This document shows positions 16,498 to 36,290 of a DNA stretch of 64,000 bases, piece after piece. Source of the stretch: [Phialemoniopsis] sp. UDSM-2020 (Eukaryota > Ascomycota > Sordariomycetes > Thyridiales > Thyridiaceae). The position numbers and the translations under genes are program-made. Location of the stretch: the NCBI GenBank assembly GCA_018873225.1, contig JAEILZ010000005.1:1054001-1118000 (forward strand). The letters are read 5' to 3'. Below the pieces are notes generated by a model that was not told where the DNA came from, did no database searches, and saw only the letters and a list, made by a program, of their open reading frames with translations. The first letter of the stretch is position 1. Every line of letters begins with the position of its first letter.

Positions 16498-17741
16498 TCA
16501 ATGCGCCTCCATGGCCTTCTTCAATGATCCTTGCGAAATCGCAAGCTTCTTCTTGCCTTCTTCTGGAGTGCATCCCAAGGTAGCCATGAGAATACAGAGC
16601 TTTACTTGCCCATCACATCTGCTCAATATGTCGTCCAGGACCGTCTCATCATTGACATCCAAAGCCGCCGTGGCGGGAACAATGGACCGGACAACACGGC
16701 GCGCTCGATCTCGAAGCTTTTCGTTAGACATCTTTAGGTCCACCATCTGTTTGGGACTCATATCAGTAAAGCGTTCGCTTCTTGTATCTACTGTAGCATG
16801 TAGAAAGTTGACTAACCAGGTTCCCAAATGTTTTCCCGATCTGGATCTGCGACCCCGTCGATATCATGTTGAGAATCTGAAGCGACCAAGGTCAGCATTA
16901 TCAAAGAAAGAGACACACGAATAGGGGATGGCCTCACCATCTTGGTTGCTGTTCCAGCCTTGAGCCTGGTGCTGCCAGTCACAACCTCAGGCCCGGTGAC
17001 ACACTCTATGACGATATCACACCATTCCTCAAGCGCACTCGGTGAAACACAGGCCAGGCCGACTGTAATTGCGCCGATGCTTTGAGCGTACTTGAGACCA
17101 CCGATGACATATGGCGTTCGACCAGACGAAGCGATCCCAACCAAGACATCTTGTTTGCTCAACGGAGGGCTCAGCTGCTGCAGGTCAGTTCGCCCAAGGT
17201 CCTCTGAATCTTCAGCACCCTCGACGGCGTTCCGGATCGCCTGGTCCCCACCAGCAATCAAGCCGATGAACTGTTCAGGAGGTGCAGAGAATGTCGGAGG
17301 TCTAGAGGTAACAGGTTAGAAAACATCCCGTGCAGTTCGTTGCCTTCTAGACATACATTTCAGATGCGTCAAGTACACCGAGTCTGAAGTTATCAACCAT
17401 ATTGTCAGTCTTATACCACTCTCATCAAAGATGCAGTATTCAGTTACCTTCCACTTGTTCCAGCCCCAGTATAAACGACACGACCGCCTATCAACAGGCG
17501 CGGTACAACAGCATCTATGACGGCTGCGACCTGAGGTAGACATTTCTGAACTGCCCTGGCCACTGTAGCATCTTCCTCATTGATGATCTCTATGAAGGAG
17601 CACACGTATGTTAGCATTTCGAAGATAGAAGACGTTTCTTTCAAGAGACCTACGACATAGCCTCAGGGAGTCCACGGCATCGATGTTTGCTGTTCTCGTG
17701 TTCTTCTGCTCAGTCTGCAGAGTATCAAGCATAACAGCCAT
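16498..17741 (-). CDS. murQ: N-acetylmuramic acid 6-phosphate etherase (MurQ type)
   Basis: Six exons (17654-17741, 17448-17589, 17357-17383, 16938-17301, 16817-16876, 16498-16746) encode 309 residues, the usual MurQ length of about 300. The enzyme cleaves the D-lactyl ether of MurNAc-6-P to give GlcNAc-6-P and lactate. Motifs: [14 protein letters not shown] at the N-terminus, a SIS-domain sugar-phosphate loop GAGTSGR (71-77), [34 protein letters not shown], and [20 protein letters not shown]85 and D117 sit at a constant offset of two from the E. coli MurQ catalytic pair E83/D115. A single SIS domain separates it from the two-SIS glucokinase regulator. Exon 3 is a 27-nt microexon encoding the E85 loop. 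Divergent from the MFS gene at 18508. Five spliceosomal introns exclude bacterial contamination. Confidence 0.93.
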
Positions 17742-18507
17742 GGTGACGACTTTCTCGGTTTTGACCGTCCTATCAGACACGAGCCCCAAAGATAGAAAAG
17801 ATAGTCGTACGCCTTGCTTAACTACATCTAACGCTCATGTCAGGGTGTTGGCCTACGTGCTTGTAGGCATATCGTCTGTCATTGCTTCGAGCTGGACAAG
17901 GGATCCGGACTCATGGCAGTCAGCTGACTGTCTGCTCCGACAAGAACGAACCTTACGATCGAGTGCGGAGGATCCGTCGGAGTCTGTGGAGTCAGCATCG
18001 GATGCGCTAACGTGCAAGCCGAGCAGCGCCAGACCTACCCCCTGGTATCTCGGGTTTTCCGCCGCCTATCATCGGCCTCCCCACACCACCCCGAACGAGA
18101 CTTGCGTTAGCGGCAATTGAAATTGGCAGCCGACCAGCAGGGTTTGATCAACTGAGGAACTCTTCGCCGCAACAATTCCCCAAGCCTACGAGGGTTATCT
18201 CGCACCCTTGTCGGTGTCCCACGGGGTAGGTCTGGCCAAACCTGAGCTGTGGTTCGTCCCCTTTGTGTCTCCGGGATTCTTATCTTGATGGGGCAATGTG
18301 GAGTGTGACCAATATCTCTTGGGAAAAATCGAGAGTTGTTCTGGAAGAGCGAGTCCTTGATCCCACCTAGACATCCAGGTCGAGGCGCCCAAGGCTTCCA
18401 CAGCTTTTAAAAGCTTGTCATCAACCCCTGGGTCGTTGTTCGTTGAATTTCCTCCCGCTCATCTTCATCCATCATTATTTTCCCATACCTACTCCCCTCC
18501 TCACACA
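17742..18507. promoter_or_regulatory. Divergent promoter region, MurQ / MFS transporter
   Basis: The 766-bp spacer holds an inverted CGG-type repeat CGGAGGATCCG at 17966-17976, a CCAAT box near 18309, and a perfect AT-rich palindrome AGCTTTTAAAAGCT at 18402-18415, about 93 bp before the MFS ATG, which could act as its TATA element. Zn2Cys6 factors commonly bind inverted CGG triplets, so the first element is a candidate site for the cluster regulator; this is not proven. Confidence 0.4.
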
Positions 18508-20539
18508 ATGGGCGCTAAACTTCACAACCTCCGCGTCGCGGTCTGGGGAGAGGCCCCTGAAAGCCCCGAGGAGCGCAAGGTATGCTGCGACAACAAGATA
18601 TGAGCCTTCATGAGTTTGTAAGCTGATAGCAGAATTTCTAGCTGCTGCGTAAAATTGATGCTTCTATCTTGGTATGAAATGCCAACCGGTTCCTTCACGA
18701 GAAGGCACGCCGCTGACCACCACCACTGCAGACCTATTGTTGCGTCGCCTTCTTCTTCAATTATCTTGGTATGCTTCAGACTTGGGTATCCGTTGGAGAA
18801 GGCTCTCATAAACTGATGACAACATAAAGATCGCGCGGTTCTCGGAAATGCATATGTATCTGGCATGAAGGAGGACATCAACATCACCGGCAACCAGTAC
18901 AACCTGCTGGTCACCTGTCTTGCCGTTGGCTGTAAGACCTTCGACATCCCTCTATTCTTTACTTGAACTCTCACTAACGCTATGGAGACATTCTTGGTCA
19001 GGTTCCTCACGGGCTTATCATCCAAAAGGTCGCTCCTCGCATCTGGTTCCCTCTCATGACCTTACTTTGGGCTGGCCTTACCATGGTCTGCGGTGCTTGC
19101 AACTCGTTCTCCCATCTTGCCGCTGTTCGTTTCTTTCAAGGATTCATCGAAGCATCAACGTACAGTGGTACCCAGTACATCATTGGCAGTTGGTACAAAG
19201 GTGCCGAGGTCGGCAAGAGAGTTGGTCTGTTTCAGGCCTCTGGCATGGTGGGAACCATGTTTGCCGGTATGTTCTTGATATCACGTCCACTCTGTGGTAT
19301 CGCTTTGATCTAACTTGGTTGCGACTAGGCATTATGATGACTGCCATTTGGAAGACCATGGACGGTGTTGCAGGACTACCCGGTTGGCGATGGGTAATTA
19401 AGCCTTGAATACCTTCTTCGCTTTGTGTTTTCATCTGGCTAACACTTCACAACAAGTCCTTTATCATCGATGGCATCATCACCATACCGGTGGCCGTCTT
19501 CGGTTTCATCTTCTTTCCCGATCTTCCCGAGACGACAACTGCCTTCTTCCTCAAGCCGCACGAGCGTGAACTTGCCTTGAGCCGCCTGCCCCCCAAGAAC
19601 CCAGAGGGCCACAAAATCGGGTTGTCTCTGATCAAGCGTGTCTTGTTTAAGCCCAACTTGTTAGTCCTTCGCGCCACCATATTGTCTTGCATTACTGACT
19701 CTTTGTTCTAGCTGGATCTTCAATGTCTTTTGGATGCTTGGCGGTGCCCTCGAGGCCTTCTCGACTCAAACCTGCATGATCCTCTGGATGCGAGCATCGG
19801 GCGAATTCACCGTCCCGCAAAACAACACGTACCCTCTTGGCATCACCGCTATTGGTATCGTTCTTACCCTGATTACCTCCGTGGCAATCGATGCTACCAA
19901 GGTGCATGGTCCTTACGGCCTGTTTGCGTGCGTGGTCCAGATCATTGCTTGTGTCATTCTACTCTGTTGGAATATCGTTGGCACTGGTGCCAAGATGGCC
20001 GCTTTTTGTAAGTCCTCGAACCTTTCTCCAGGCAACTCAACTAACAACCTCTTTCAGATCTTGCTGGAACGGCTTACTTGATTCAACCCGTTGTTTTCGT
20101 CTGGGCTAGTGAGCTCTTATCGCGCGACGGTGACGATGCCGCGCGTGCCGTCACTCTCTACGCCATGAATGGTTAGTACGGCTACGTATTGTCTGGTGGG
20201 GTCAATGAATCTGACATTCGTTTCGACAGGTGCTTCCTCTGTCCTCTACGCCTTCTGGGGAATTGCGCTATACCCAACCACCGATGCTGCAACGGTAAAT
20301 GATCGTCCTTTGTGTTGTAGCTCCAAGAGTCGGGCCGCTGACCAAGTTCTCAGGGCTTCCACAAGGGAACCATTGCCATGGTCGTGGTCGCCGTTAGCCT
20401 AGCCCTCTGGATTGGCATAGTCTGGTGGCAAGACAAGCGAACCGCCGATATACACCCACCCATGCCGGAAAACGAGAGTAAGCTTGGAGACGAAGATGTC
20501 ACGACCAACGAGAGGAACATCGACGAGAATGAGAAGTAG
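18508..20539 (+). CDS. MFS transporter, Dal5-like; candidate muropeptide/amino-sugar importer
   Basis: Eleven exons (18508-18579, 18642-18671, 18732-18768, 18830-18931, 18988-19266, 19329-19393, 19457-19659, 19712-20007, 20058-20171, 20230-20294, 20354-20539) encode 482 residues. The reading shows twelve membrane segments with the family sequences FFFNYLDRAVLGNAYVSGM, FFQGFIEASTYSGTQYIIGS and IWFPLMTLLW. Exons 2 and 3 are only 30 and 37 nt, so automatic predictors are likely to damage the N-terminus. It shares a divergent promoter with MurQ, making it the best candidate for import of MurNAc, anhydro-MurNAc or a disaccharide. The family is better known for carboxylate substrates, and MurNAc carries a lactyl carboxylate. 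Substrate assignment is inference. Confidence 0.88.
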
Positions 20540-21079
20540 TGAAGGTTCCCCGAGCTCAGGAGCACCGCTCAGGTCTAACCGAGCACTAAGCTGAGCGCAG
20601 CAGAGAGATTGGGGATGATGGAGTTGAGTTATGGTCGGACGGTGACTTGGTCACTAGGGCCCAGGAGCTTGCATCTAGCTCTACATTTTCAAGGCTAGTG
20701 ACTAGTAAGAGTGTTACTTGATAAGAATGCTGAGTGAGGTATACGATGTTTGCAGAATCTGTCCTCTATTCAGAGACAAATCGAGTTTCGTCAAAAGGTA
20801 CATGGTTGTCAAAGAGGATTCCATGTTCATGCTGAAGCCATGAAGAGGTCGTCAGTATGAACATTTACAGTTTGATGGCGAGTCCTTAGGTTGTCACAAA
20901 GTAAGGTCATAATATGATGTGGTGCAGCTTGGCCTCCCTGAATGGCACGTAGTACACTGATCGTGGTGTGCACCAGAGCGTCAAAATCAACACGCGATGT
21001 GAGGCGTGTTTTCTTCGTCTAAACATCTGTCTATTACATGGTACGTTCCTCTACTGCTACCTCTTCTCTAGTAGAAGAT
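20540..21079. other. Intergenic between convergent MFS and NagB genes
   Basis: 3' flanks of two convergent genes. No ORF of interest, repeat or RNA gene seen. Confidence 0.5.
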
Positions 21080-22233
21080 CTATGCTGTTGAGGTCTCAAT
21101 GCGAGACATCATGTTATCTAGCATGGGTTCAGGGGTAACCGGTCTAGATGAAGGCGCCGCGAGAACGGGGTTGTTCGCACGAAGGAGATAGCCCTGAGTT
21201 TCAAGATCTCTAGAGGGGATGGGAGCATCAACTCCATTGATGGTGATCCGCGCGGTCTTCGGCTCCGCCTCTCGCCCCTTGCGAAGGCCTGTAGGAAGGG
21301 CTTGCTCGAACCCTCTCTGTCTAGCAATTTGTTCGATGGACTTGAAGTACTGAAGTGACAATACTGTGTCAGTATGGCAAATAATAAACTTCAGAACACG
21401 GGAGGGACCCACCCTGACGGTCTTGACTTGTAGCTCGAGGGTTGCGTCATCGTCTGCAACAACCATGGAGTGCTTATGTAGTTGGAGGCCAGATAAGGTC
21501 CACATATGGTTGACTCCGGACTCGATACACTTCTTCAGTGCAACAGCTTTGCGCGCGCCGAGTGCAATGACCACCACTTCCCGGGCGTCAAGCACGGTCT
21601 GTACGCCGACAGTAAGAGCCATGGCGGGCACCTGGCTGACATCATTGTTGAAGAACCGCGAGTTCGCAAGGATTGTGTCATATGCGAGCGTCTTCACCCG
21701 AGTCCTGCTGGCCAGCGAAGACCCCGGTTCGTTGAATGCAATGTGTCCATCCTCTCCGATCCCGGCCAGAAACAGGTCAATGCCACCGAGTCTTTGTATA
21801 GCCTCCTCGTATTGAGCACATTCGACCTCCAAATCAGGCGCGTTGCCGTCAAGGATATGAACGTTCGCGGGCCGAATGTTAACATGTGAAAAGAAGTGTT
21901 TCCACATGAACGAGTGGTAGCTTTCTGGGTGGTCGCGTGGGAGGCCGACGTATTCGTCCATGTTGAATGTCACGACATTCTCGAAAGAGACCTGGAAATT
22001 GTGACTGGTCAACATCTTGATGCGTATGCCCAAACTTCAGAACTCAAACTCACATGTCCCGCTTTGTAGTGCTCGACTAAAATTCTATAAACTTCGACAG
22101 GGCTACTACCCGTCGGTAAACCCAGAACAAACGGACGGTCAACCGTTGGCTTGAACTCGTCAAGTCTTTTCAGGATATACTGGGCGACATAGTTGGCGGC
22201 AGCGGCCGAGTCGTCGCGAATGATGAGTCTCAT
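21080..22233 (-). CDS. nagB: Glucosamine-6-phosphate deaminase (NagB)
   Basis: Exons 22054-22233, 21413-21991 and 21080-21349 encode 342 residues. It converts GlcN-6-P to fructose-6-P and ammonia in the cytosol, the last step of amino-sugar catabolism. Motifs: MRLIIRDD start, [12 protein letters not shown] phosphate loop, [13 protein letters not shown] with the catalytic aspartate, [13 protein letters not shown] with active-site Asp and His, and [10 protein letters not shown]. Bacterial NagB is about 266 residues; this one carries a C-terminal extension of roughly 80 residues, rich in Pro/Ser/Thr at its end ([10 protein letters not shown]), as is common in fungal forms. Divergent from the AnmK gene across 830 bp. 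The cell may hold a second copy for chitin-derived GlcNAc. Confidence 0.95.
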
Positions 22234-23063
22234 GATGGTTACCCCAGGGATGATGTCTCTTTGTATTAGTTTTGTGTCGATCGTGAAGGCTGAACTGTTC
22301 AGAGGCTGTAAATATGGGACATCTCAAGAGGGTCATCCCATAAGCATGTGATACTGGTGCAAAAATCAGCCATGATCAACACGGTTCGTAGGTCACCCTG
22401 TGCTCCGTCTCATCAGTCGGATTTCTGATGTTGGAGCCACACAAGATAGCCGACCTACCAGTCATCTGCCATGAGTAACATCGTCAACGCTCGAGGGTCC
22501 TGGTTAGTCTTCGGTTTATCCGTCGGCATGTCCCCACCCAAGTTGAGAGAACTTCTTTAGCCCCTTGAACCGGCCGCTCGGTGACGCTACTTGCGCTAAC
22601 TCGGCCCTTCCGGAGCTAGTTTGAGATGGGGCTTGACTCCACGACAAGCGCTGTTGAACTGCCGAATTTTCGATAACGCGACATCGAGTGCAGGTCTTCA
22701 ACTTCGGTTGCGCAGCATTAGGAACAGTGATTCGGATACCTTGAGAGATATCGCTGAAGGCTCCGCAACGGGAAAGATGTTACTGGGCTCGGCATGGTGT
22801 GGTGCGTAGTCACGATTGGCATTCATACTCCAGACTCCCGTTGTTTGCTTGACCTGCCGAAGCGTGCCACCTTTTGTCACTGCATACTACGTTCAGAGAG
22901 TCCTCCGGGTACTGATGAAACGAAGTACTTAGGCTCAGTGTTGTGATGATACCTTGGCTCGAGTCTGCCACCAGTACTTGACCTGCGATCTGACATTATT
23001 GGCACTGAGTCCATTCCTTCTCCACAGGAACGCTCCTTGTCACAAGCCCAACACATCTACAAG
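22234..23063. promoter_or_regulatory. Divergent promoter region, NagB / AnmK
   Basis: An 830-bp spacer between head-to-head genes. A TCCGGA palindrome lies at 22609-22614, preceded by ACTTGCGCTAACTCGGC; a partly similar ACTTGCGTTAGCGGC occurs in the MurQ/MFS spacer near 18103-18117. The resemblance is suggestive only. No gene is seen. Confidence 0.35.
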
Positions 23064-24545
23064 ATGGTCGTTCTCAATGTTCTAGGTCTTAACTGCGGGA
23101 CGAGTGTCGATGGTTTGTGCCATAATATCACCAATGCTTTCAAGGGCTGTTCCAAACTGATTCACATCATAGGTATCGACGTTGCTCATTGTCGGATCTC
23201 GCATATTCCCACAACCAAAGATGTGGAGATTGAGGTATTGTCATACACCGAAGTCTCAGTCAACCCGTATATCCGAGCACAGGTCTTGCGCCTATGTCGG
23301 CCTAACAAGGAGGGCGCTGCCACCTCCATGGCCGAGGTCTGTGATCTCAACTTCGCTCTAGGCAGAGAGTTTACACGCGCGATCGAGGCATCAGGAGTCG
23401 ATTTGTCGCAAGTGGACATTGTGGCTAGCCATGGGCAGACCTTGTGGCATCAGCCCAACGGTGAGAACAGGTCAACTCTTCAGATGGCCGAACCAGCTGT
23501 GATTGCACATAGAACCAAAAGGTATGTGGGCTTCGCATGTCAAATTACTATGTCACAAGATGACTGAGTTCAAATTCGCAGGACCGTTGTGTCAGGCTTC
23601 CGTGTTGCGGAGTTAGCAGCTGGGCGGCAAGGAGCTCCCTTGGCTGGGTTCTTTGAAGCTGGTCTGCTCTCGGATCCGAACGTAGTCAGGATTAGCCAGA
23701 ACATTGGTGGCATGGGTACGTACACCAGCTCTTGGGCGTGGGAAGATTCGTCGGACAGCTAACACCGATCCCAAGGCAACGCAACCGTGCTTGTTGGAGA
23801 GAACAAGGCCAAAGTCACAGGACCTGAGTCCAGTTATCTCGCCTTTGATACTGGCCCGGGTAATGTCTTTATCGATGCTGCTGTGCGCATCTTAACGGAC
23901 GGCAAACAGCACTATGACTGCGATGGCGTTCTTGGTGCTCGGGGCGAAGCGGAGATCGACGAGGCGGTGGTCGCCGACTACTTGGCCAATGAACCGTACT
24001 TCAAACAGCACCCGCCCAAGACAACCGGGCGAGAGCTCTTCTCCGATGATGTCGCCCGAGAATTGGTGGACCGGATGAAGGCGTCAGGCAGATCGTCTGA
24101 GGCCATGATTGCAACCATCACACGTATCACCGCCGAATCGATTACCAGAGCGTATCAGGACTTTGTGGTGCCATTGGTTGCCGATGGCAAACATATCGAC
24201 GAGATCTATATCTGCGGGGGCGGAGCTTATAATCCCAACATCCTCAAGTACCTCCAGACACAGTTCCCGGATAGCCGAGTCATGAAGCTTGACGATGCTC
24301 CTACGAAGCTAGAAGCGAATGCTAAAGAAGCGGTTCTATTTGCCCTACTAGGCTTCCTTTGTGTCTCTGGTCAGACTGTTCCTCTTGCACAGGGCTCAGA
24401 GTCCTTGGAAACTGCCATCATGGGAGTTGTCACTCCAGGGGATAACTATCGTGACCTCATGAAGCAAGTGGTTGGGGATTCAGAGTTTGCGAGCCATGGA
24501 GTCTTGGGTCGTATTAAGATCACACAATCTTCAGATAGCAAGTAA
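23064..24545 (+). CDS. anmK: Anhydro-N-acetylmuramic acid kinase (AnmK)
   Basis: Exons 23064-23112, 23173-23521, 23582-23715 and 23776-24545 encode 433 residues (bacterial AnmK is about 370). The enzyme opens 1,6-anhydro-MurNAc with water and phosphorylates it with ATP to MurNAc-6-P, the MurQ substrate. Evidence: [15 protein letters not shown], the family's N-terminal phosphate loop formed across intron 1; [11 protein letters not shown], carrying the conserved HGQT box; [24 protein letters not shown]; and [11 protein letters not shown] near the C-terminus. All key blocks are intact. No signal peptide, hence cytosolic. Anhydro-MurNAc is produced only by bacterial or phage lytic transglycosylases, so a fungal copy implies growth on bacterial wall turnover products. 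All three introns are exactly 60 nt. Confidence 0.94.
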
Positions 24546-25179
24546 TCATGCATAATTATTATTCAGGATATATTCTGTGTCCACGTTGATTAATCAACAA
24601 TTGATTGGGCAACAAGTGCCAAATTTGTTTCCACGATAGTTTGTTCAGGATCAATAGTCATTTGCTGTACGTCTGAGATCCAAGCCTTGACCACTCTACA
24701 CATAAGTCACATCCACGACCCCGGATAGATGCGTCTATCGACAGTCCACGTGCTGGTGAGACATGAGTGGTTCAGTGGCCTATTGGCGCCTTGTTGCTGA
24801 TCGGGGCCGGACCACGGGACTTCGCCAGACCCACAGCAGATTGGGAGCTCCGTCGGGTTCTCCGTCAGGCGCGCTGGACTCTCCCTTGCTTCCTACTTAC
24901 GAATTGGACCAACCAGATACGCTCTTCTGGCCGAATGTCTTGACTCAAGCAATCGCGAGGCGGCATGGGCTGCCGACAGGCGCGGCAGCACGCCTATCCT
25001 GATGCCATTATCAGTAAGCTGTCATCGCTCTGAATGTGCATGTTCGTCATAGAAAATGCTCATTGTGCACACCAAACAAAACGCCTGTCCGAAGGTAGTC
25101 AGAGAAGAGGGGTTGAACTAGATATTGCACCAGGCCTCGATCTCAACTCCGTCTACAATCGCTCTAATCGTCAATCAAA
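24546..25179. promoter_or_regulatory. Intergenic between AnmK and NagA genes
   Basis: 3' flank of AnmK and promoter of NagA, both on the plus strand. Short ORFs only. Scattered CGG triplets but no convincing repeat. Confidence 0.4.
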
Positions 25180-26656
25180 ATGCCTGCCCCTTCGTCGTCA
25201 CAATGGAGTGGCATTACGAACTTCACCAACTGCCGCCTTGTTCGAGGTGACAAGCTGGTGCAACAAGACATCTGGTTCAGCTCCACGACCGGCACCATCC
25301 TCTCTAGCCAAAGCACCTTCTTCAGCGCAGGTACTCTGCCAGATCGCGTCATAGATCTTCAAGGGCGCATCGTGTCACCCGGCATGATCGATGTGCAGCT
25401 CAACGGCGCTTTCGGCTTCAACTTTTCGACGTTCCCCGAAGACACGGCGAAATATGCCAAGACATTCAGAGATGTCAATAAGAAACTGGTCAATATAGGA
25501 GTGACTTCATACATGCCAACATTGACGAGCCAGAAGCCAAAATTGTACCAGAAGGTGCGCAATTTGTTACGACGCAGTCTTGATCCTTTGGATATGACTA
25601 ACTGACCACTGGATAAGGTACTGCCCATCCTTCGTCAAAAGAAGTCACGTAATGCCCAAGATGGTGCCGAATCACTTGGAGTGCATTGCGAAGGGCCGTT
25701 CCTGAACCCTACCAAGAACGGCATTCATGACGTGAACGTTCTTATTGAGGCCAACACCTTTGACGATATAGAAGCTTGCTATGGAGCGGAAAATCTCGGT
25801 AGCAAGAGCGGGTCGCATACCCCGGCTATGAAGAAAATCACCATTGCTCCTGAACAAGGTAGAATGACAGAACTCATCCCCCAGCTTAGGGAACGAGGTA
25901 TCATCTGCTCTGTGGGCCACTCCGAAGCTACCTATGAAGAGGCATCAAAAGCCGTTTCTCAAGGAGCCACGATGATCACCCATCTATTCAACGCCATGCG
26001 CCCGCTCCACCACAGGAACCCTGGGATCTTCGGTGTTCTTGGCACGACTAGTGCACTGAACAGGCCATTCTTTGGCATCATCGCTGACGGCATCCACCTT
26101 CACCCCACGGCGATCACAATAGCTTTCAATGCTCATCCGGAAGGCTTCATGCTAGTCACCGACTCTATGCATCTCGTTGGCTTGCCGGACGGGTCGTACC
26201 GGTGGATGAATGGCGAGGCTGAGAGTAAGATTGTGAAGAAAGGTCCGACACTGCGTTTGGAGGGAACGGATAAGATTGCTGGCAGGTAAGTAGAATTGTC
26301 ACAGTCATCAGTGATAACAGTACTGGTCATGAGTAGATCTGACTATCCCTCATAGCTCTATCACGCTGCTCGAGTGTGTCAACAACTTTCTTGCGTGGAC
26401 AGGCGCATCTGTCCCCCAGGCTCTCAAGGCCGTGACTGCCACGCCAGCATTGATGTTGGAGATGCAGGACAAGAAAGGCTGTCTCGACTCCGGTGCTGAT
26501 GCAGACTTTGTGGTCTTCTCCGAGTGTAAGAACAGTGATGGGGCTTCACAACTGGTCATTGATGAAGTGTGGAAGTTTGGTATTCTCGTGTATGAGCGCG
26601 AAGGTGCTAACATCCCCGAACCAATTTCACCTCTTAGTCCAACGAGAAGATGGTAG
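25180..26656 (+). CDS. nagA: N-acetylglucosamine-6-phosphate deacetylase (NagA)
   Basis: Exons 25180-25554, 25618-26285 and 26356-26656 encode 447 residues, within the eukaryotic range. It removes acetate from GlcNAc-6-P, the MurQ product, giving GlcN-6-P for NagB. The amidohydrolase metal and substrate ligands are visible: HCEGPFLNP (Glu), CSVGHSEAT (His), THLFNAMRPLHHR (His) and TDSMHLVGLP (catalytic Asp). Start MPAPSSSQW at 25180; PGMIDVQLNG follows the N-terminal beta domain. Cytosolic. It converges with the secreted hydrolase gene 203 bp away. Fungal GlcNAc clusters carry the same enzyme, but there it sits beside a hexokinase-type kinase and not beside MurQ. Confidence 0.95.
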
Positions 26657-26859
26657 CGATGAGAGGGTGCGACATGCTCTTAGATCACTCCACTTGAAGA
26701 TAATTAGACTTTTGAATTTGAGAAAGCTCTTCATAAGCATGATTAAGATTTTGCTCTGGTAACTACATTCTACAACTTCGAATCGACATGATCTCGCGGT
26801 GTCCTGATCGAACTACAAGAGCAAAATGAATCTCGCATTTAAGCGATTTTAGCTTCACT

Positions 26860-28155
26860 TTACTTCGGGAATTGAACATCTCTTCCAAGAGCCTTGGCGA
26901 CCCAGTAGCCCATGGCCATACGTACGGGGTTGTTGGTCGACCATTTGCGACTGGGGTGGACGCGGTTGGCAAAGTGTAGCCAGAACGTGCCGGTAGGTCG
27001 GTCCATAGCCAAGGTGGTACCAGTAAACCCGGAGTGGCTGGCGGTATGCATGCTCTGCATTGGACCCTGAGTGTATGTCTGGTTGATAGCAAAGCCGGTG
27101 CCGTAGTTGTTGCCCGGGAACTTGCCGTTGAAGTCAGTAAAGATTAGATCGACCGCTTCTTTGGACAAAACCCGGAAGCCGTTGTAGGTTCCGTTGTTGA
27201 GAATCATCTGGCAGAAAATGGCGACATCTTCGACGGTGGAAAACAGTCCGGCGTGGCCGGAAACGCCGTCGAGAGCCCATGTGTTTTCGTCATGGACGGT
27301 ACCGCGCACGGGCTGAGGTCGCTTCGGCTCTTCCGGACCTTGGACTGCGATTTCGAACTCGGTGGGAGCAATGCGGTTGTAGAAAGGGTTCAGAGATCCC
27401 TCTAGGTTCCCTCGGTTGAAGTGTGTCGACTTCATGCCGAGCGGGATGGTGTAAGCGTAGATCAAAAGATCGTAGCTAAGACCAGTCACCTTCTCCAGGA
27501 CGTAACGCAGCGTCATGAAGTTGATGTCTGAGTAGATGAACTGGGTTTGTCGAGCGGCCTGTTGGGGCAGAGTAAGGAGAGTGTCCACTCTCTGATCGAT
27601 GGATGTGTAGTTGGACTTCCACAGATCTGGAACAGGATCGGGCATGAGGCCGCTGGTATGTGTTAGGAGATCGAGGATAGTGACGTCTTGTTTGCCGTTC
27701 TCTCCAAATTTTGGGAGGTAGGTCACCACGGTGGCGTTGAGCTCGATCCGGCCGGCGTCAATCTCTCGAAGGACGGCAACACTGGCAAAGAGCTTGGAGA
27801 GGCTTGCCAAATCGTAGATGGTATCCATCGTGGCATCCTCCTGCTGAGAAGCAGGCAGGAGAGTGCCGTTGGCATCGGCATAGAGGCTCCGCTTGCCCGT
27901 GGTGAATGCGGCAACGATAGTGCCGTAGCGGGCTACGATGTTGGCCGAGCCAGGCTCTAGGGGGCGTGTTACGTTCATGCTAGCAGCGCCATAGTTGCGA
28001 GCCACAGTGTAGGACGTAATGTTCTCTACCATGTCCTTCAGAGGCTGTGGGAGCAATCCCACAGCGGAAGGACATCCCTTGTGCAGGACGTACTCCTCAG
28101 CGGAGACAGCGGTTGCAACGGTGGACGCAAGGGCGACGGCGTGAAAGAGTTTCAT
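26860..28155 (-). CDS. Secreted serine beta-lactamase-fold hydrolase, AmiE/YbbE-like
   Basis: Intronless, 431 residues from ATG 28155; the frame is open upstream but MKLFHAVALASTVATAVSA at this ATG is a clear signal peptide, cut near residue 19. Class C beta-lactamase/penicillin-binding fold motifs: nucleophile S118-L-S-K121 (SxxK), YSD in FIYSDINFM (Yxx box), and HSGFTGT in place of the KTG box. In Bacillus subtilis the murQ-namZ operon encodes AmiE (YbbE) of this superfamily, which cleaves the MurNAc-L-alanine amide bond of muropeptides. Similar secreted fungal proteins could be esterases, so the amidase role rests on the neighbours. Divergent from the cluster regulator. Confidence 0.82.
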   Translation of the reverse strand: MKLFHAVALASTVATAVSAEEYVLHKGCPSAVGLLPQPLKDMVENITSYTVARNYGAASMNVTRPLEPGSANIVARYGTIVAAFTTGKRSLYADANGTLLPASQQEDATMDTIYDLASLSKLFASVAVLREIDAGRIELNATVVTYLPKFGENGKQDVTILDLLTHTSGLMPDPVPDLWKSNYTSIDQRVDTLLTLPQQAARQTQFIYSDINFMTLRYVLEKVTGLSYDLLIYAYTIPLGMKSTHFNRGNLEGSLNPFYNRIAPTEFEIAVQGPEEPKRPQPVRGTVHDENTWALDGVSGHAGLFSTVEDVAIFCQMILNNGTYNGFRVLSKEAVDLIFTDFNGKFPGNNYGTGFAINQTYTQGPMQSMHTASHSGFTGTTLAMDRPTGTFWLHFANRVHPSRKWSTNNPVRMAMGYWVAKALGRDVQFPK

Positions 28156-28882
28156 GATGATGCTGTCTGCCAAACAAAGACCCAATGGCAATTCGACAAA
28201 GGATAATGCAAAAGCGGACAATGACTGGCGTTCTCCCCATCGAAGGTACCATGCCACCGCATTTGAGCGTCCCCGAAGAGCATCCAATCCCCCGTGGAGA
28301 AAAAGCCTCCCCGGGTATGGCCTTGTAGAATCAAGACTGATGGGTCATGCCTGTCATGTCGATCAATTGATGCAACGCTTTGGACCAATCAATGGGACTT
28401 GGTCTTATCTGGGGTCCAGGTATGCAGATTGATGACATCCGCCTGGCGCTGTTCCAAGCGTCGAAACTTGTGGAGGAGCACTAGTATTCTCTAGAATATG
28501 TCGCTATCTTGCTAGCGTCGGGATATCCGTCGCAATCTCCTGGATCCGCACGTGATATCTTGCCGGTTCATGGATCATTCACGTTCCGTCGGCGTTCATA
28601 TCTTCCACCAGTCTACTATGTACAGTTCGGGCAAAGACACCCATCGGACAACCCCACAGAGCCGACTCTTCGCTCACAATCTATCATGATCTTCTCGTTT
28701 GGTTCCTTTGCAGGCCTGCCTTCAACTCGCATGTGAACTTCCGGCTCCGCTCCACCTGGTCACGACGATCCCCTTTTGGCACTCCTTGCCCCAGACATCA
28801 TCTTGCACCCTTGTAAAGAACTCGAGAACGAGCACGGGTTTTCCGCCCTCCACACAGATAACTTCCGCCAACACGCAAAGGA
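28156..28882. promoter_or_regulatory. Divergent promoter region, AmiE-like hydrolase / Zn2Cys6 regulator
   Basis: 727-bp spacer with no gene. Several CCG/CGG triplets occur, for example TTCCGGCTCCG near 28741, but no perfect long repeat. The regulator shares this promoter with a structural gene, so autoregulation is possible. Confidence 0.35.
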
Positions 28883-30888
28883 ATGAGCAGGACATTTTCG
28901 AGAACTCCGCAGGCGTGCAGCCTATGGTCCGTAGCGCTTAGCCCTCCATTTGGGTCAATTCAGTCGCGTTGGCTGTACTGTTGCTAACGTAAACTCCTGT
29001 AGCCGCCGCCGAAAGACAAAGTGCGATGGCATTCGGCCTCGATGCCACCACTGTCGTATCAAGAATCTCGTCTGCGAATGGCCTGGCCCAGAGCTGCCCG
29101 TCTACGCGGCTCCGACGGCCCCTCTGACTCCGAACTCCTTCAATCCGGCGACCGGAAGTATCCTGGCATCAGTGTCACCGTCATCCCCACCGGCAATTGC
29201 TGCGGAGCTGTCACCGGAGGGCCTCCTGCTCTGCATCAACCTTTTTTTCGAAAGACACTTTGCCAGCGATTTCTGCTCCTTCGACCACCAGCCCGACTTT
29301 GAGCAGAAATGCCGACAAGATTCACTTCTAGCCGCATCAGTCGTGGCCCTTTGCGGTCGCTATCTAGACTCGCAGGTCGTCCAGCCCCTCTTCGGGTTCA
29401 CGACAGCTCAAGATGTATCTAGATCATACATACACAGGGCGAGGATGCTAGCGAAGATGACCTCGGATGAGCCCTCTGGTATGTGAATGCAAGCACTATG
29501 GCGTGCAATTTGAAGTTCCTGTTCGTGAGCTAACCTTCGTGCCTTTTCTGACAGTGTCGCATATTCAAGGAAACTTGATATTGGCGATGGCCGAACTCTT
29601 ATCCAATTCTGGCTCCCGGCATTGGCTATTCTCCGGCATAGCTATTCGCATGGCTGAGATCATGCGGCTCAATAAGGAGTTTCACCAGAAGCATAGTCTC
29701 AAAGAACAGGAAGTCCGTAGGAGGACTTTCTGGGCCTGCCTACTCTTTGATAGAGCTCTCGCTTATCTTCTGGGAAAGCACCGAACCATCGACCTAGACA
29801 ACGTGACTATTGCCGTTCCGGGGACGGACGCCTCCCTCGCATACGAAGACGAGTCGAGAGGTGTGACCCTCGCCTCTCTGAGTGCATATCGGCGCCCGTC
29901 GGATCTAGGCGTGCAGCCATATCTCATCAAGACGGTCTGCGTCTGGAGCGACATGGCAGATTTTGCCAACTCTTCTCGGAGACAGGTCGATCCTTACCCA
30001 CCGACAGACCTTCGGAGCATGTACTTCATCCGCAGCTCTGCGCTACAATCTTGGCAGGAGTCTCTTCCTCCCAGCCTGAGATGGAATCCCCAGAATTACG
30101 GCGGCCAAGCTGCCCTAGGCCAAGGCAGACCCTTCACTGCGATGCACTTTCTCCTCTGTAGTGCCTCTTGCGTCGCCCTCCAGTGCTATTTGCCTCATAT
30201 CACTCTGTTCACTAAACTTGTTGACCTGGTGGATGCCGCCGGCCTATCATACCTGCACAGAGATCCACAACTTATCCAGGAGTGTGTGGACAATGCTTTC
30301 AAGGTTGGGGAGATACTCCAGTTCTTGATGTCCTCCAGCCCGCAAGCCGGCGAGTCTCCATTGGAAACTGTGTGGGTGGCATCTTCCATCCTGATAGTCG
30401 CGAATACCTTTCTATGGCTTCGCTACGCCGAGGACGAGATATGCACGGGACCCAATGTTCGAGAGCGAGCCAATCACTACTTCGACCTTGTCCGTCAACT
30501 TATCTCGTCATGGGGCCCTGATTGGAAAGCAGCCAGGCAGTGGCTGTCGTCACTAGATGCCATGCATGATCTGTACAAGGCAGCCTACATTGGCGAGGTG
30601 CACGACAGCTTTCTCAACCGCGAGGAGGCAGCTTCCGCGCCTGACGAAGACGACTCAGGCAACGACTTCAGGCCGCAGCCCGGCGACGGTTTCCCCTCTC
30701 TCATCTCGCTGCCCAATCTCCAATCCTCTGTCAAATTTGCCACTTCGGATACTTCGGCCAAGTCTATCAGCCTGCAGTCCATTTGGTTGCAGCTGTCCGG
30801 TGGCTGGAATTATGGCTTTCCAGATCATGGCTTTCTGGTCGATACCGAGATGGAAGGTCAACAAACAGCCTACAATGTCGTCAACTAG
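28883..30888 (+). CDS. Zn2Cys6 transcription factor inside the MurNAc cluster
   Basis: Exons 28883-28926, 29003-29478 and 29555-30888 encode 617 residues. The zinc cluster is assembled only after splicing: exon 1 ends in QACSL, and the next cysteine codon is split by intron 1, giving C-x2-C-x6-C-x6-C-x2-C-x6-C (CSLCRRRKTKC then CHHCRIKNLVC). The donor GTCCGT is weak, so predictors may start at a false ATG and lose half the cluster. Residues about 150-450 carry the fungal middle-homology region (GIAIRMAEIMRLNKE, RRRTFWACLLFDRALAYLLGK). Position at the centre of the MurNAc genes makes it the likely pathway regulator; the inducer is unknown. Confidence 0.88.
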
Positions 30889-31222: not shown

Positions 31223-32696
31223 TCATGCATCTTCGTGAACCGCCTTTGTCTCTACAACGGGAGGAGTGTAGCCAGCCTCTTCCTCGACATCGGTGTGCTT
31301 CGAAACGGTCCATACCGCTGGTAGAGCAATGACAAGGGATCCGATACAAAGACCCCAGTCCATCCCAAACTGAGTTCTGCTGCTCGTTCCTAGTGCATTG
31401 ACGCGCCACGCCATAGCACCACCCGTGGCTTGAAACGTCTTGTACGCACCCACGAGGATAGCCGCGCGACCCGCGCTGTTGGATTCGGTCCCAATGAGCC
31501 AGTACGCGAAGCCTTGCCAAAGTGCATCGTAAGCACCGTAGAAGATGTATAGAAAGATGGGACCGGTGGAAATGCTCCCTTGCGTGTAGTCGATGTCCTG
31601 CTTGAGGCCGCGCAGGACACGCGCCTCGTGCCAGAGCTCAAAGCTGAGGCCTCCGCCCCAGATCGCCATGCCGGTGACGGAGAGGACGGCCCAGCCGACC
31701 CGCGCCCGGTTGGAACGATGGAGCCAGGGCATGTCCAGGATCAGACCGATAAGGAGGCCGCCCAGCATTTGCGCCAGCCAGTAAAGGGCACTGTTGAGCG
31801 ACCGCGTCCGGATGTTGAAGGTCATGCCGTTGACATTGTTCTGCTGGTAGCTGTAGAACACATTGGCGGAGAAGAAGAGGGGAAGCATGCAGGCGACCCG
31901 CCATTTGAACAAGGTGCTTGTGGCCATCTTGATGATTCCCTTGAAGTTGTGCTTCTCCGTCTCAACCGCCTGGTGTAGCTGGGCGAGGCGGATGCGTGAT
32001 GGAGAGCACAGGAAGATGCCGAGGAGCCATCCGAAAGCCATGATGGTCATGAGAGCGATGTAGGTCGAATCTGTGACACTGCCCTCTTTGGACTTGAAGT
32101 TAAGACCAAAGGATATGAAGGAGCCGATTCCGCCGCCCAAGTTGAAGATGATCCAAAACACCGCGATAGCCCGACCTTTCTGAGACTCCTCGACATATGT
32201 GGTCATGATGGCACCTTGCACGATCCAGATGAAGGAAGCACCGATACCAAGAATGGCGCCCGATGCTATGACGAAAGCCCCATTGTGATGGTGGTTGAAG
32301 TGTAGAAGACTGCCGCTATAGAGGGCATAGGTCCAACCACCGATCAAGAAGCAGATTCGAGGCCCAACACGGGAGAAGATCGGGCCCACGATGAAGAGCG
32401 CAGTGCCGGCAGTAGCAGAGAGAAGAGCAACGTTGGCATTGGCGGCGACCGTTGAGTCGACTTGTCCAGAGCCACCAAGGCCGGTGAGCGCATTGTACAT
32501 CTAATCTTTTGTTAGCACAGTAGAGAAATATATCGGCACATGTACTCACTCCGGGTAGACAGAAGCAGATGAAGCTGATAAGCACAACTTGAGTCCATGG
32601 GTGCGAGTAGAATGCCACAAGTTTCGAGGACGACAACTTCCGACCACCAGCACCGTCGGCAGTTCCTTCGTGATGAACTTCTTGAGGGTCATTCAT
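31223..32696 (-). CDS. UNC93-like MFS membrane protein (DUF895 type)
   Basis: Exons 32550-32696 and 31223-32500 (49-nt intron) encode 474 residues. The sequence has a short cytosolic N-terminus, then TQVVLISFICFCLPGMYNALTGLGG, the typical first-helix motif of fungal UNC93-like proteins, followed by about ten more hydrophobic segments, including GASFIWIVQGAIMTTYVEE, another family hallmark. These proteins are MFS-fold and often sit in fungal carbohydrate gene clusters, but few have known substrates. It is divergent from the amino-sugar kinase, so it is a second candidate importer for MurNAc or GlcNAc in this cluster. Confidence 0.88.
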
Positions 32697-33216
32697 GTTG
32701 GCGGTAATCGTTCTGCGCTTCAGGTTGATGATCCTTGAGTGTCCGACTCTGGTGTGTTTCGGCCGACTTGTGACGGACTGCGGCCTTGCCCAGTGCTCTT
32801 ATACTTGAACCTCCACGACGGTGTGTGCCAAGCTGGGGAAGGCCTGTCCAAACGAATCGACGAGACGAGCCTGTGGCATGATCAGTTGCCAGAATTACCG
32901 AAAGATAAGTGATGATAACTGAGGTTCTTCCCATATGGTTGCATCCGAAAATCGGCTACGGATAACCCGTCCGGGGGCTTCGGTGAGGGGAAAAGCGACT
33001 AAAATCTCCTAAGCACGCACGAACTCCGCTTGTGGGGGGATGAGGGTGTGGTGGAACCTAACCACCTGGACACTTTCTATCCACCTGCTGTTTGAGTCCA
33101 GGTGGCATGGACATGCTTCCATTCATTAATGTTCGCATATGCTCTGTTCTTCAATGGCCTAGTCCAACGAGACAAGGGCCAGAATGTGTAGCTCGCTCGG
33201 AAGCCAGGTCTGCACA
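32697..33216. promoter_or_regulatory. Divergent promoter region, UNC93-like / amino-sugar kinase
   Basis: Contains an everted CGG-type repeat ATCCG-N11-CGGAT at 32943-32963 and a perfect 10-bp inverted repeat, CCACCTGGAC at 33062-33071 with GTCCAGGTGG at 33096-33105; a third CCACCTG lies in the loop at 33081-33087. Both are candidate regulator sites. No gene is seen. Confidence 0.4.
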
Positions 33217-34377
33217 ATGCCAGCGCGCATCGAAGTCGACCACGGGAAGCAACCACAAAGCCCTCACTCAAGTCTAGTGCTCTGCGTGGATGCCGGAGGA
33301 TCAAGTTGCAAAGCAACTGTAGGTTCGGCTGATGGGATACTGTCTTCGAGGGTGGGCGGCCCATGCAATATGTGAGCAGACCTTGCAATGAAGTCTTCGA
33401 AGCAGATACTGACACTCAGTGATAGTACCACGATTGGTATTGAACGTGCCCTAGCAACCATAGCAGCTGTCACGAATGAGGCTCTTCAGAATCATCCACA
33501 CGGCAAAGGAGAGACCCTTTCGACAGTCGAATTCAGGCAAGCCTGGGTAGGGCTCGCCGGATACGACCGAGCCTCCTTAAAGCCCAAAGTAGACGCCGAG
33601 CTCGCCAAACTGTTCCGGCTGTCAGTACAGAGCGAGTTAAGGATAACTTCGGACATTGATCTGCTCTCCGCAGTCTTGTTGGGTCAGTCTGACATATCGT
33701 CCGCCGTTGTTCTTGTTGTGGGAACAGGCTCTGTTGCCATGAGCTACAAGAGAAGCCATGACGGTTTCGAGCGTGTGGGCCGCGTTGGTGGCTGGGGAGG
33801 TCTTCTTGGAGACGACGGATCTGGCTACGCAATAGGTCGAGAAGGCATCCGTAGAGCTCTGCAGCAATGTGATCTGCATACACTGAGGTCGAAGGCCCGT
33901 GTCAAACAGACGCCGTTTACGCCGCTGGCTCAAGCCGTGCTGGAGCACTTCCAGTCTCTTTACCCTGGCTGCGAGCCCGAAAGCCTTCTGAGCAACTTAT
34001 TGGTTCCTGCCCCAGCTGCACATACGAGGGAAGAAGGCATTACATCCATAACAAAGCCCATAGCTAGCGCTGCCTCGGCGGTCCTCTCAACTGCTGCTTG
34101 CGATGTTGAGGCGAAGCAGATCCTCGATTCCGGCGCTTCCAGTGTAGCTGACTTGGTCAATATTCTGGTTTGCGAACAGGAGATCGATGTCAAGAGTTGC
34201 GCACTGGTCCTGAGCGGCGGACTAATGAAAGACCTATCGTACAACGAGATGATCATGCAACTGGTAGAGCATCAGTGTGGCAATTTCGGTCAGGTCAAAT
34301 TCATCAGTGATCCAGCTATAGTTGGAGCAAGAGAGCTTCTTTCAAGGACACGACAACAAGGCCAACCCTTTTCGTAG
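33217..34377 (+). CDS. BadF/BadG-family amino-sugar kinase (GlcNAc kinase, MurK-like)
   Basis: Exons 33217-33371 and 33426-34377 encode 368 residues; an in-frame ATG at 33184 would add 11. ASKHA-fold kinase motifs: CVDAGGSSCKATV (phosphate 1), RVGGPCN-ITTIG, VVGTGSVAMSY, GGWGGLLGDDGSGYAIGREGIR, and LSGGLM (adenosine loop). The family includes eukaryotic NagK and clostridial MurK, which phosphorylates both GlcNAc and MurNAc at O6. In this setting phosphorylation of imported MurNAc, the NamZ product, to MurNAc-6-P is the attractive role, because MurQ needs it and no PTS exists in fungi. Fungal chitin clusters use hexokinase-type GlcNAc kinases instead. Intron 1 has two in-frame acceptors 6 nt apart. 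Confidence 0.9.
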
Positions 34378-34934
34378 ATCTACCTCATTTTTAATTAGAA
34401 TTTAGATCAGCCATAACAGGACATTGAAAGAATTATCACATATTATCGCGAAGCCAGTACCCTGTCAGCAAATTCGTCTGCAAGTATTTGGAGCTCTTGA
34501 ATGAAAGTGGTCCAACAGATGAGTATCCTCGTTGGGTTTTTGTAAGGTACGATGCCCACCACACAGCACACTAGCTCGTCCTCGTCACAGAATGACTACG
34601 CGATTCCCATGTCGCTCCACCTCCAGCTGGAGCTGGGGATGAAGCCGGTAGTGTCGGGTTATCCGTTGGTGAGATTACAACTTGCACATGGGGTGACCCC
34701 GACTCGGTTACCGGCAGGGTGGAATGCAGAGATTCGTGGAGAGTCAGGTTCTCCGAAATGAAAGATGGTATAGATCTGCAGAGAGGCGTGGTCCCTGTGG
34801 GGATTGAGGGGCTCCGCGTTATCATGATCCAGCTGTACGGTTCATACTTCAATACGAGCGCTTCTGCAGCATTTCGAGAGCATCACTATTGTTCACAGTA
34901 CGGTGTTACAGTTTTCGGTAAACCTATCTCGATC
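34378..34934. promoter_or_regulatory. Intergenic, promoter of NamZ-like gene
   Basis: Lies between two plus-strand genes. The NamZ frame is open far upstream, but the residues before ATG 34935 have no family resemblance and would hide the signal peptide. No clear repeat. Confidence 0.4.
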
Positions 34935-36286
34935 ATGTTTGCCATATTCTTCCAGCTCCTGGTGTTGGCAGCTGTTGCCCGGGGGTACGGCAAGCCAGGG
35001 CGTGTCAAAACCGGTCTTGATGTCCTCCTTGAGCAAGACTATGCGCAACTCGCCGGTCGGAAGGTCCTTGTGCTTAGCAACCCTACTGGTGTCACCCCTC
35101 AGCTGGATCTTGGAGTCGATGTCATGCATCAATCTGGCAAGGTCAACATTGTGGGTGTAATGGGCCCTGAGCATGGCTTTCGCGGCACGGCGCAGGCCGG
35201 AGACTCCGAGAGTACCTTTGTGGACGAGAAAACCAGATTGACTGTGTACAACGCGTACTTGGCAAACACGACGACCATGATGAGTTACATTCGAGACTCG
35301 GGAGCAGACACTGTTCTTTTTGATATTCAAGATGTGGGAGCCCGGTTCGATACATGTACGTCTTCATCCAAGACAGCCTGAATGATAGACACTCATCCTT
35401 TAACACAGACATTTGGGCTATGTATGACTCAATGGTCGCTGCAGCCAAGGCCAATGTCTCATACGTCGTCATTGATCGGCCGAATCCTATCACCGGCCTG
35501 GACGCCTTTGGACCGGTTCTGAACGAGTCTTTCGTCAACTCTTATGTCGGCCGTCGAGCCATCGCCCAGGCGCACGGCATGACTGTAGGCGAGCTTGCTC
35601 GGATGTTTGTCGGGGAAGGATGGATCAGCGAGGGTGCGTGCGGCCGTCAATTGGCGCTGGAAGTGATTCAGATGGAGCACTGGGAGCGCTGGATGACTTT
35701 CGACGACACGGGATTACCGTGGGTCATGCCAAGCCCAAACATGCCTACATTAACCACCGCAATGCTGTATCCTGGAACCTGTATGTTCGAGGGCGTTAGT
35801 TTATCAGAGGGACGTGGCACGACGAAACCCTTTGAACTGCTGGGGGCACCGTGGGTGAACGACTCCTGGGTCTCAGCCATGCGAGATCTCAACATTCCAG
35901 ACACTCAGTACCGGTTCCAATGTTTTACTCCCACGGCGGACGATTTCAAGGGCAACGTCTCGTGCGGAATACAGGCGTACGTTAATGCGCGAACTACTGA
36001 GCAGCTTCGAAAATTCGACGCCCCGTACATCGCCACGGCTCTTCTGTATACGGCACGACAACTCTTCACCGTCGGCAACACCAGTGCCATTGGACCAACG
36101 ACAGGAGCATTCCACTGGATTCTGAACAAGGGTGAGGATGAGATGTACGACGTGGACGTGTTGGTAGGGTCGCCCCTTATCAGAGAAGGGCTGGAGAATG
36201 GTTTACGCCCGGAACAGATACGCGATACCTGGCTCCCGGGGTTGGCAAAGTTCAAGGAGACGCGAAGTAAATACTTGCTGTACTAA
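34935..36286 (+). CDS. namZ: Secreted exo-beta-N-acetylmuramidase, NamZ/YbbC type (DUF1343, GH171)
   Basis: Exons 34935-35355 and 35409-36286 encode 432 residues; Bacillus YbbC is about 414. The N-terminus MFAIFFQLLVLAAVARGYG is a signal peptide. NamZ removes MurNAc from the non-reducing end of peptidoglycan fragments. Family motifs in order: VLSNPTGVT, MGPEHGFRG (77-84, with the conserved acidic residue and histidine), DIQDVGARF-DTY (joined across the intron), VIDRPNPITG, GRRAIAQAHGMTVGELA, MPTLTTAMLYPGTCMFEG, SEGRGTTKPFELLGAPW. All are intact. Export means MurNAc would be released outside the cell, consistent with cytosolic kinases and two membrane carriers next door. I know of no characterised fungal member. 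Confidence 0.93.
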
Positions 36287-36290
36287 GAGC

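Follow-up and report, generated by a model that had tools for sequence, protein, structure and literature searches.

Ten adjacent genes of a filamentous fungus resemble a regulon for the catabolism of muramic acid

The gene cluster

Ten adjacent genes of the filamentous fungus [Phialemoniopsis] sp. UDSM-2020 look, from their sequences, like a near-complete kit for the digestion of muramic acid, a type of pathway known from bacteria. Muramic acid is generally seen as a bacterial sugar, and its turnover in soil is credited to bacteria. The genes lie at positions 16498-36286 of the window, the 64,000-nucleotide stretch of DNA that was analysed (C7:1054001-1118000), and very probably form a dedicated, self-regulated regulon for the catabolism of N-acetylmuramic acid (MurNAc) and peptidoglycan. 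Contig C7 measures 4.29 Mb and belongs to a genome of 44.18 Mb in 11 contigs. The order of the genes was established with Pfam and NCBIfam (GlcNAc, N-acetylglucosamine; MFS, major facilitator superfamily):

16498-17741, - strand: MurQ, MurNAc-6-phosphate etherase family (309 aa, 6 exons: 17654-17741, 17448-17589, 17357-17383, 16938-17301, 16817-16876, 16498-16746)
18508-20539, + strand: MFS transporter 1, candidate importer of MurNAc or muropeptide (482 aa, 11 exons; PF07690 122.8 bits)
21080-22233, - strand: NagB, glucosamine-6-phosphate deaminase (342 aa, 3 exons)
23064-24545, + strand: AnmK/levoglucosan-kinase-family anhydrosugar kinase (433 aa, 4 exons)
25180-26656, + strand: NagA, GlcNAc-6-phosphate deacetylase (447 aa, 3 exons)
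26860-28155, - strand: AmiE-type beta-lactamase-fold hydrolase (431 aa, 1 exon, signal-peptide-like N-terminus)
28883-30888, + strand: Zn2Cys6 transcription factor, likely cluster regulator (617 aa, 3 exons)
31223-32696, - strand: MFS transporter 2, UNC-93-like (474 aa, 2 exons; PF05978 45.1 bits, PF07690 43.8 bits)
33217-34377, + strand: BcrAD/BadF-family sugar kinase, proposed MurNAc and/or GlcNAc 6-kinase, MurK-like (370 aa, 2 exons)
34935-36286, + strand: NamZ (DUF1343), exo-beta-N-acetylmuramidase family (432 aa, 2 exons, strongly hydrophobic N-terminus)

A preliminary description of the window had reported ten adjacent genes, most of them with spliceosomal introns, and enzymes that keep their family motifs, and had held that a loss of catalytic residues would speak against a MurNAc pathway. 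The genes, their positions and introns were confirmed, and so were the motifs looked for. The ten gene models were spliced by hand, their reading frames are open, and nine of them contain 27 introns in total, every one GT-AG and 48-76 bp long; the AmiE-type gene is intronless. Equivalog cut-offs of NCBIfam were exceeded by MurQ, NagB and NagA, while the AnmK-like, hydrolase and BcrAD kinase proteins stayed below the cut-off of every model listed for each. The motifs looked for by script were found in all seven enzymes; the catalytic residues within them are those which we take to be catalytic in the respective families. Since curated cut-offs are exceeded, the splice sites fit and a promoter motif is common to six intergenic regions, the cluster represents more than a chance assembly. 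Contamination was ruled out by the introns, the 4.29-Mb contig and flanking genes of fungal type. The proposal of a MurNAc catabolic cluster in a fungus is further supported by a separate GlcNAc cluster elsewhere in the genome, by the orthologue-like match of the hydrolase to bacterial NamZ-adjacent genes, by the linkage of the BcrAD kinase to MurQ and by the shared promoter motif.

A common promoter motif

The putative regulator carries a six-Cys Zn2Cys6 pattern (Zn_clus 30.5 bits, Fungal_trans 84.3 bits). Motifs were scanned in the six intergenic regions of the cluster (4,034 bp) against the window outside the cluster. In a scan restricted to CGG dyads (inverted, everted and direct, spacings 0-15, 48 tests), CGG-N5-CCG was the sole dyad under p 0.05, with 9 sites in all six promoters compared to 1.83 expected (p 1.3e-4). 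Seven of these nine sites lie within one mismatch of CGGGTTATCCG:

18051-18061, + strand: CGG-N5-CCG motif CGGGTTTTCCG, MurQ/MFS1 divergent promoter
22512-22522, + strand: motif CGGTTTATCCG, NagB/AnmK divergent promoter
24854-24864, + strand: motif CGGGTTCTCCG, NagA promoter
28519-28529, + strand: motif CGGGATATCCG, AmiE/regulator divergent promoter
28835-28845, + strand: motif CGGGTTTTCCG, upstream of the regulator
32959-32969, - strand: motif CGGGTTATCCG, MFS2/kinase divergent promoter
34655-34665, + strand: motif CGGGTTATCCG, NamZ promoter

The rest of the window contains one site within one mismatch of CGGGTTATCCG, located inside the oxoprolinase reading frame. In a blind test seeded from the shortest promoter and allowing one mismatch, the best 11-mer was CGGGTTWTCCG, present in six of six promoters. 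Of 200 dinucleotide shuffles, 194 yielded at most three of six promoters and the other six yielded four, and six flanking stretches taken as intergenic gave two of six.

Genome-wide, five exact matches to TCGGGTTWTCCG were listed, two of them within the cluster (binomial p 2e-6); the other three (C2, C4 and C7) adjoin no gene recognisable by eye as related to peptidoglycan. Allowing one mismatch, the genome holds 241 sites and the reversed control more (361), so that the overall number reflects background and only the local density is informative, with seven sites (counted from the window scan) in the 19.8-kb cluster compared to 0.11 expected. One one-mismatch site was found in the 30-kb stretch of the GlcNAc cluster on C8. 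No site within two mismatches occurs at 34745-44972, which would make NamZ the last gene of the regulon. The ten genes share the promoter motif and are apparently controlled together.

The BcrAD kinase and its linkage to MurQ

The BcrAD kinase exceeds its Pfam cut-off (PF01869, 60.7 bits compared to 31.5) and contains the phosphate and adenosine motifs DAGG, SDIDL, GTGS and SGG; against the NCBIfam NagK model it scores 58.7 bits, far under the cut-off of 370. A second copy was not found by genome search at E 0.001. Of the 7,999 candidates scored, a capped set, 51 proteins passed, and all those bearing organism names are fungal. In two of the records, P0265 of Beauveria gryllotalpidicola and the metagenomic P0262, MurQ and kinase domains are joined within one chain. 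Part of MurQ is missing from P0265 and the MurQ N-terminus from P0262, so that the fusions are possibly gene-model errors; even so, the MurQ and kinase genes would be neighbours. Nine of the fungal kinases are named. One of these is the Beauveria chain, and four (Sporothrix schenckii, S. bragantina, S. eucalyptigena and Niveomyces insectorum) lie on a contig exactly as long as the MurQ contig of the same species, the MurQ and kinase numbers of S. bragantina being consecutive (008024, 008023). For the four Clonostachys kinases no equally long MurQ contig was found. Judged by lengths and names of contigs and not by gene order, MurQ and the kinase are thus apparently on one contig in four other fungi. 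Metagenome contigs of equal size for NamZ and the kinase (46094 and 8566 bases) are suggestive only. For one relative of the kinase, P0246 of Clonostachys solani, the domains listed for the chain also include GNAT acetyltransferase.

In bacteria, weak matches to the kinase (E 3e-4 to 8e-3) were detected in four of the best 80 of 592 NamZ loci, two from Actinoplanes and two from Terrabacter, all of which also contain MurQ. Pfam confirmed the BcrAD assignment for one kinase of each genus; in Actinoplanes the kinase is located between NamZ and MurQ, and in Terrabacter ~7 kb from NamZ. The association with MurQ suggests MurNAc as the substrate, and we propose that the enzyme is a MurNAc (and/or GlcNAc) 6-kinase.

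The AnmK-family kinase

The preliminary description had named the fourth enzyme AnmK. Membership in the family stands (PF03702, 226 bits, over the Pfam cut-off), but against each of the 14 NCBIfam models for AnmK that were listed the protein stays below the cut-off (best 338.9 compared to 387 bits). A levoglucosan-kinase orthologue on contig C9 (L015 4473-5795; 674.4 bits against levoglucosan kinase, a better orthologue than the gene in the cluster) scores about equally against the same models (348.6 bits). As the cut-offs were not reached and this orthologue scores alike, AnmK is used here as a family label only. By eye, the C9 gene adjoins frames resembling a sugar MFS transporter, and a third paralogue is present on C4. 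A relative was detected in only 5 of the 119 actinobacterial genomes, which does not suffice for a tree.

The enzyme could therefore be a levoglucosan-type kinase, with the cluster also handling anhydrosugars from other sources, which would be compatible with a MurNAc regulon for the other nine genes. Its score is higher against levoglucosan kinase (339 bits) than against bacterial AnmK (128 bits), and it is 41% identical to the C9 protein compared to 29-34% for five actinobacterial relatives. Nevertheless, the genome already keeps a clear levoglucosan-kinase orthologue on C9, the short loop GQTLWHQP contains a histidine as in the bacterial proteins and differs from the loop of the C9 levoglucosan kinase, and the gene shares a motif-bearing promoter with NagB. 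We therefore regard a levoglucosan-type kinase as possible though rather unlikely. Mainly from its context, the gene probably encodes an anhydro-MurNAc kinase. The solved levoglucosan kinase structures presumably derive from Lipomyces starkeyi.

NamZ and the AmiE-type hydrolase

NamZ contains both domains of its family (NamZ_N 228.5 bits, NamZ_C 134 bits) and keeps the residues that are invariant over 17 chosen fungal and actinobacterial sequences. It has no NCBIfam match, and a second copy was not found by genome search (E 0.001). The protein is a putative exo-muramidase. The AmiE-type hydrolase (PF00144, 172.9 bits) contains SLSK, YSD and HSG, which we take to be the motif set SxxK, Y-S-D/N and H-S/T-G of the beta-lactamase fold. 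Its best NCBIfam model is PBP4B (140.8 bits, under the cut-off of 385), which in E. coli is encoded in the murQ operon (PMC5061867; this and the other papers are cited for the sections drawn on here), and it is 43% identical to an Amycolatopsis gene. Mean hydrophobicity of the 12 N-terminal residues was 2.65 for NamZ and 1.93 for the hydrolase, and both N-termini would fit secretion, which is a reading by eye only as the AnmK-like protein follows closely (1.72).

Searching the best bacterial NamZ loci by tblastn, we found an AmiE homologue in 23 of the 80, of which 21 were strong and located 112-2083 bases from NamZ; MurQ was also present in 15 loci. Seventeen of these genomes were searched whole, including 12 from the 21 loci with a strong homologue beside NamZ. 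In all 12, the NamZ-adjacent gene was the best genome-wide match to the fungal hydrolase (in one Kribbella 284 bits, the next best reaching 54), and in the other five, which have no strong adjacent homologue, the best match was found elsewhere. This outcome is the one expected of an orthologue of the bacterial NamZ-adjacent gene, and we predict that the hydrolase is a MurNAc-L-Ala amidase.

One GH25 lysozyme-family gene was found in the fungal genome (C6:3123513-3123989, L116). The exact cluster motif was not found in the 10-kb stretch around it. This gene could supply endo-cleavage.

Secreted NamZ and AmiE-type enzymes might also have the lysis or starvation of competing bacteria as their main role and feeding as a secondary one. 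Aspergillus fumigatus secretes an antibacterial peptidoglycan endopeptidase (PMC12332128), and a horizontally acquired murQ in ants (Camponotini) was linked to defence by its authors (PMC13320244). For lysis, however, the five cytosol-type sugar enzymes and the two carriers of the cluster are not needed, which makes this explanation improbable. NamZ moreover belongs to an exo-enzyme family, ill suited to killing.

NagA, NagB and the separate GlcNAc cluster

NagB (TIGR00502, 391.9 bits; cut-off 236.9) and NagA (TIGR00221, 245.3 bits; cut-off 225.65) both have second copies on C8, with 79% identity across the main exon for NagB and 55-62% by exon for NagA. On C8 the two genes are no more than 17 kb apart and enclose a GH3 gene, a GNAT domain, an NDT80-like regulator and a hexokinase. 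Together these represent much of the content of the published GlcNAc cluster of filamentous fungi (PMC4950302; ngt1 was not searched for). Since C8 holds its own NagA and NagB, those of the window are an additional pair.

These second copies, and the GlcNAc kinases known within the family of the BcrAD kinase, would also be expected if a chitin/GlcNAc cluster had been duplicated and joined by a few bacterial-type genes, the true substrate being GlcNAc or chitobiose. A simple copy is rejected by the presence of the separate cluster on C8. The NDT80-like regulator and hexokinase-type kinase characteristic of RON1 clusters are both found there, whereas the ten-gene cluster has a Zn2Cys6 regulator and a BcrAD kinase instead. 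In addition, the substrates of the MurQ and NamZ families are MurNAc compounds, absent from chitin, and neither gene has a second copy that we could find. We consider this origin improbable.

MurQ

MurQ scores 357.8 bits against TIGR00274 (cut-off 302). Its motifs ASEIPPT (residue 83) and VEGAED (residue 112) align with those of solved MurQ chains, and both motif glutamates, which we take to be the two catalytic glutamates of MurQ, are kept. A genome search at E 0.001 revealed no second copy; the second-SIS model PF22198 had no match in the genome and stayed below its cut-off for MurQ. The protein is a predicted MurNAc-6-phosphate etherase. Its Pfam label is GKRP_SIS_N and some fungal relatives bear the name glucokinase regulator, but a sugar-phosphate-binding regulator like animal GKRP, devoid of etherase activity, is most improbable for a 309-aa protein that passes TIGR00274, matches solved MurQ with 277.6 bits compared to 83 for the best GKRP, keeps the motif glutamates and is fused to a sugar kinase in the Beauveria record.

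Origin and published record

The preliminary description had suggested phylogenies for finding bacterial donors. Quick trees were calculated from the best 120 of 8000 homologues for MurQ and the best 120 of 7936 for NamZ. The MurQ tree comprised 39 fungal rows including the query, 70 other rows and nine MurQ of actinobacterial NamZ loci; twelve of P0001-P0120, two of them from Fusarium, were removed by hand as fragmentary or of odd length. The NamZ tree comprised 33 fungal rows (the query, 20 named and 12 metagenome records judged fungal by similarity) and 42 other rows, namely 28 taken as every second match of P0185-P0239 and 14 from the loci; P0146 and P0154-P0184 were left out. Against the rows sampled, the 38 fungal MurQ sequences, from ascomycetes and basidiomycetes, formed one clade with the query (support 99), with the nine actinobacterial MurQ lying far off, and the fungal NamZ rows likewise formed one clade (support 100). 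Transfer of an actinobacterial operon as one block is not supported, because the fungal MurQ do not group with those of the actinobacterial loci. The trees thus yielded fungal clades but no bacterial donor, as their other rows are the nearest search matches plus the MurQ and NamZ of the loci.

MurQ and NamZ homologues are present in many fungal records among the matches listed, some already named MurNAc-6-phosphate etherase; taken as genes, neither is new to fungi. The earlier remark that no characterised eukaryotic equivalent was known is limited by this and by the murQ of ants. It holds for the pathway to the extent that the matches listed from open-licence literature included no account of a fungal MurNAc pathway, and absence there does not mean absence from print.

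Neighbouring genes

Directly after NamZ, at 36701-38443, a RidA-like gene (-) lies next to a gene (+) resembling pyridoxal phosphate (PLP)-dependent Ser/Thr dehydratase or hydroxyaspartate dehydratase. A D-glutamate cyclase gene (PF07286, 177.8 bits; 43097-44086, -) adjoins a hydantoinase/5-oxoprolinase gene (44491-48565, +), and after the latter lies a Class V aminotransferase-like PLP enzyme (48718-50101, -; Pfam match solely in the piece 49361-50101). D-Glu is a component of peptidoglycan stem peptides, and this module of D-glutamate cyclase, 5-oxoprolinase and PLP enzyme could use stem-peptide D-amino acids. The cluster motif was not found in the stretch between the D-glutamate cyclase and 5-oxoprolinase genes. 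The left flank (11363-16378) carries a TauD-like dioxygenase, an MFS carrier and a monooxygenase resembling flavin-containing monooxygenases; its only motif-like site (two mismatches, 15743) falls inside the frame of the last.

Proposed pathway and its weight

In the proposed pathway, secreted NamZ would clip MurNAc off wall fragments, and the secreted AmiE-type hydrolase would remove the stem peptide before or after this step. MurNAc would be imported by one or both MFS carriers and converted to MurNAc-6-phosphate by the BcrAD kinase; the AnmK-family kinase may yield the same product from anhydro-MurNAc. MurQ would then form GlcNAc-6-phosphate and D-lactate, and NagA and NagB, distinct from the copies in the GlcNAc cluster, would lead from GlcNAc-6-phosphate to fructose-6-phosphate, with the Zn2Cys6 regulator acting via CGGGTTWTCCG.

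Several points weigh against such a regulon. Its activities, secretion, transport, regulator binding and induction are all deduced from the genes. The MFS carriers are only candidate MurNAc importers, and neither NagZ nor D-lactate dehydrogenase is among the ten genes, the latter not having been searched for genome-wide. The best solved match of the BcrAD kinase, the MurNAc/GlcNAc kinase 8zo3, is weak (48.2 bits), and the protein is far from solved MurK; the AnmK-family kinase resembles levoglucosan kinase more closely than bacterial AnmK. Of the 80 best bacterial NamZ loci, 57 have no AmiE or MurQ match, many of them being from Streptomyces and some ended by contig ends. In a broad scan, CGG-N5-CCG ranks only about tenth of 27,320 three-base dyads (p 1.8e-4), a value that would not survive correction for multiple testing. 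The motif was discovered in the same promoters on which it is tested, and of 60 sextets drawn at random outside the cluster, with overlap among them allowed, two reach five of six and none reaches six.

More speculatively, the locus might be a peptidoglycan-salvage island, with a ten-gene regulon that fungi put together out of several bacterial sources and duplicated GlcNAc-pathway genes, an anhydro-MurNAc kinase that emerged alongside levoglucosan kinase, a MurQ-kinase fusion in some fungi and the neighbouring D-amino-acid module at 36.7-50.1 kb for use of stem peptides; taken as a whole, we regard this picture as unlikely. If the MurNAc regulon proves true, fungi would be direct consumers of bacterial walls, which would bear on muramic acid as a necromass marker and would offer a substrate and a promoter motif for testing fungal feeding on bacteria. 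It would also point to an anhydrosugar used in nature by a kinase family met in fungi, within the sources cited, only as levoglucosan kinase.

Comparison with known systems

Levoglucosan kinase (PDB 4yh5, 4zxz, 5tkr) is the closest solved relative of the AnmK-like gene, but has a separate, closer orthologue on C9. The murQ of Camponotini ants is likewise a eukaryotic MurQ of bacterial origin, although it is described as a lone gene read as defence, with no surrounding pathway in the sections cited (PMC13320244). The GlcNAc cluster of Trichoderma reesei and other fungi (hxk3/dac1/dam1/ngt1/nag3/ron1) shares the NagA and NagB steps and possession of a regulator of its own, which is NDT80-like. 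In the sections cited, neither MurQ, NamZ and AnmK, expected earlier to be absent from fungal amino-sugar clusters, nor AmiE is named for it, and "muram" and "peptidoglycan" have no occurrence in the paper (PMC4950302).

Among bacteria, actinobacterial loci (Kribbella, Amycolatopsis, Terrabacter, Actinoplanes and others) combine NamZ, the AmiE homologue and MurQ in the 15 of the 80 best loci mentioned above, four of the 80 also having the BcrAD kinase, and the nearest named bacterial NamZ among the matches listed are actinobacterial (46-48%). The fungal MurQ, in contrast, does not group with their nine MurQ.

The final gene of the Bacillus subtilis cluster murQ-murR-murP-amiE-nagZ-ybbC, ybbC, is presumably namZ. 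The parallel drawn earlier with this cluster applies to MurQ, AmiE-type and NamZ-type proteins being encoded together and, as far as can be predicted for the fungus, to the conversion of MurNAc-6-phosphate to GlcNAc-6-phosphate and D-lactate (PMC5061867). It does not extend to the phosphotransferase system (PTS) transporter MurP or the regulator MurR, neither of which is among the ten genes, nor to NagZ, which is not in the cluster. Unlike in B. subtilis, the fungal genes are spliced individually and include NagA and NagB; a Zn2Cys6 regulator takes the place of MurR, and MFS carriers with a soluble kinase take that of the PTS. As PTS and MurR are missing, the fungal cluster is not a member of the bacterial MurNAc recycling clusters; it is a counterpart of the bacterial MurNAc catabolic operons that would work alike.

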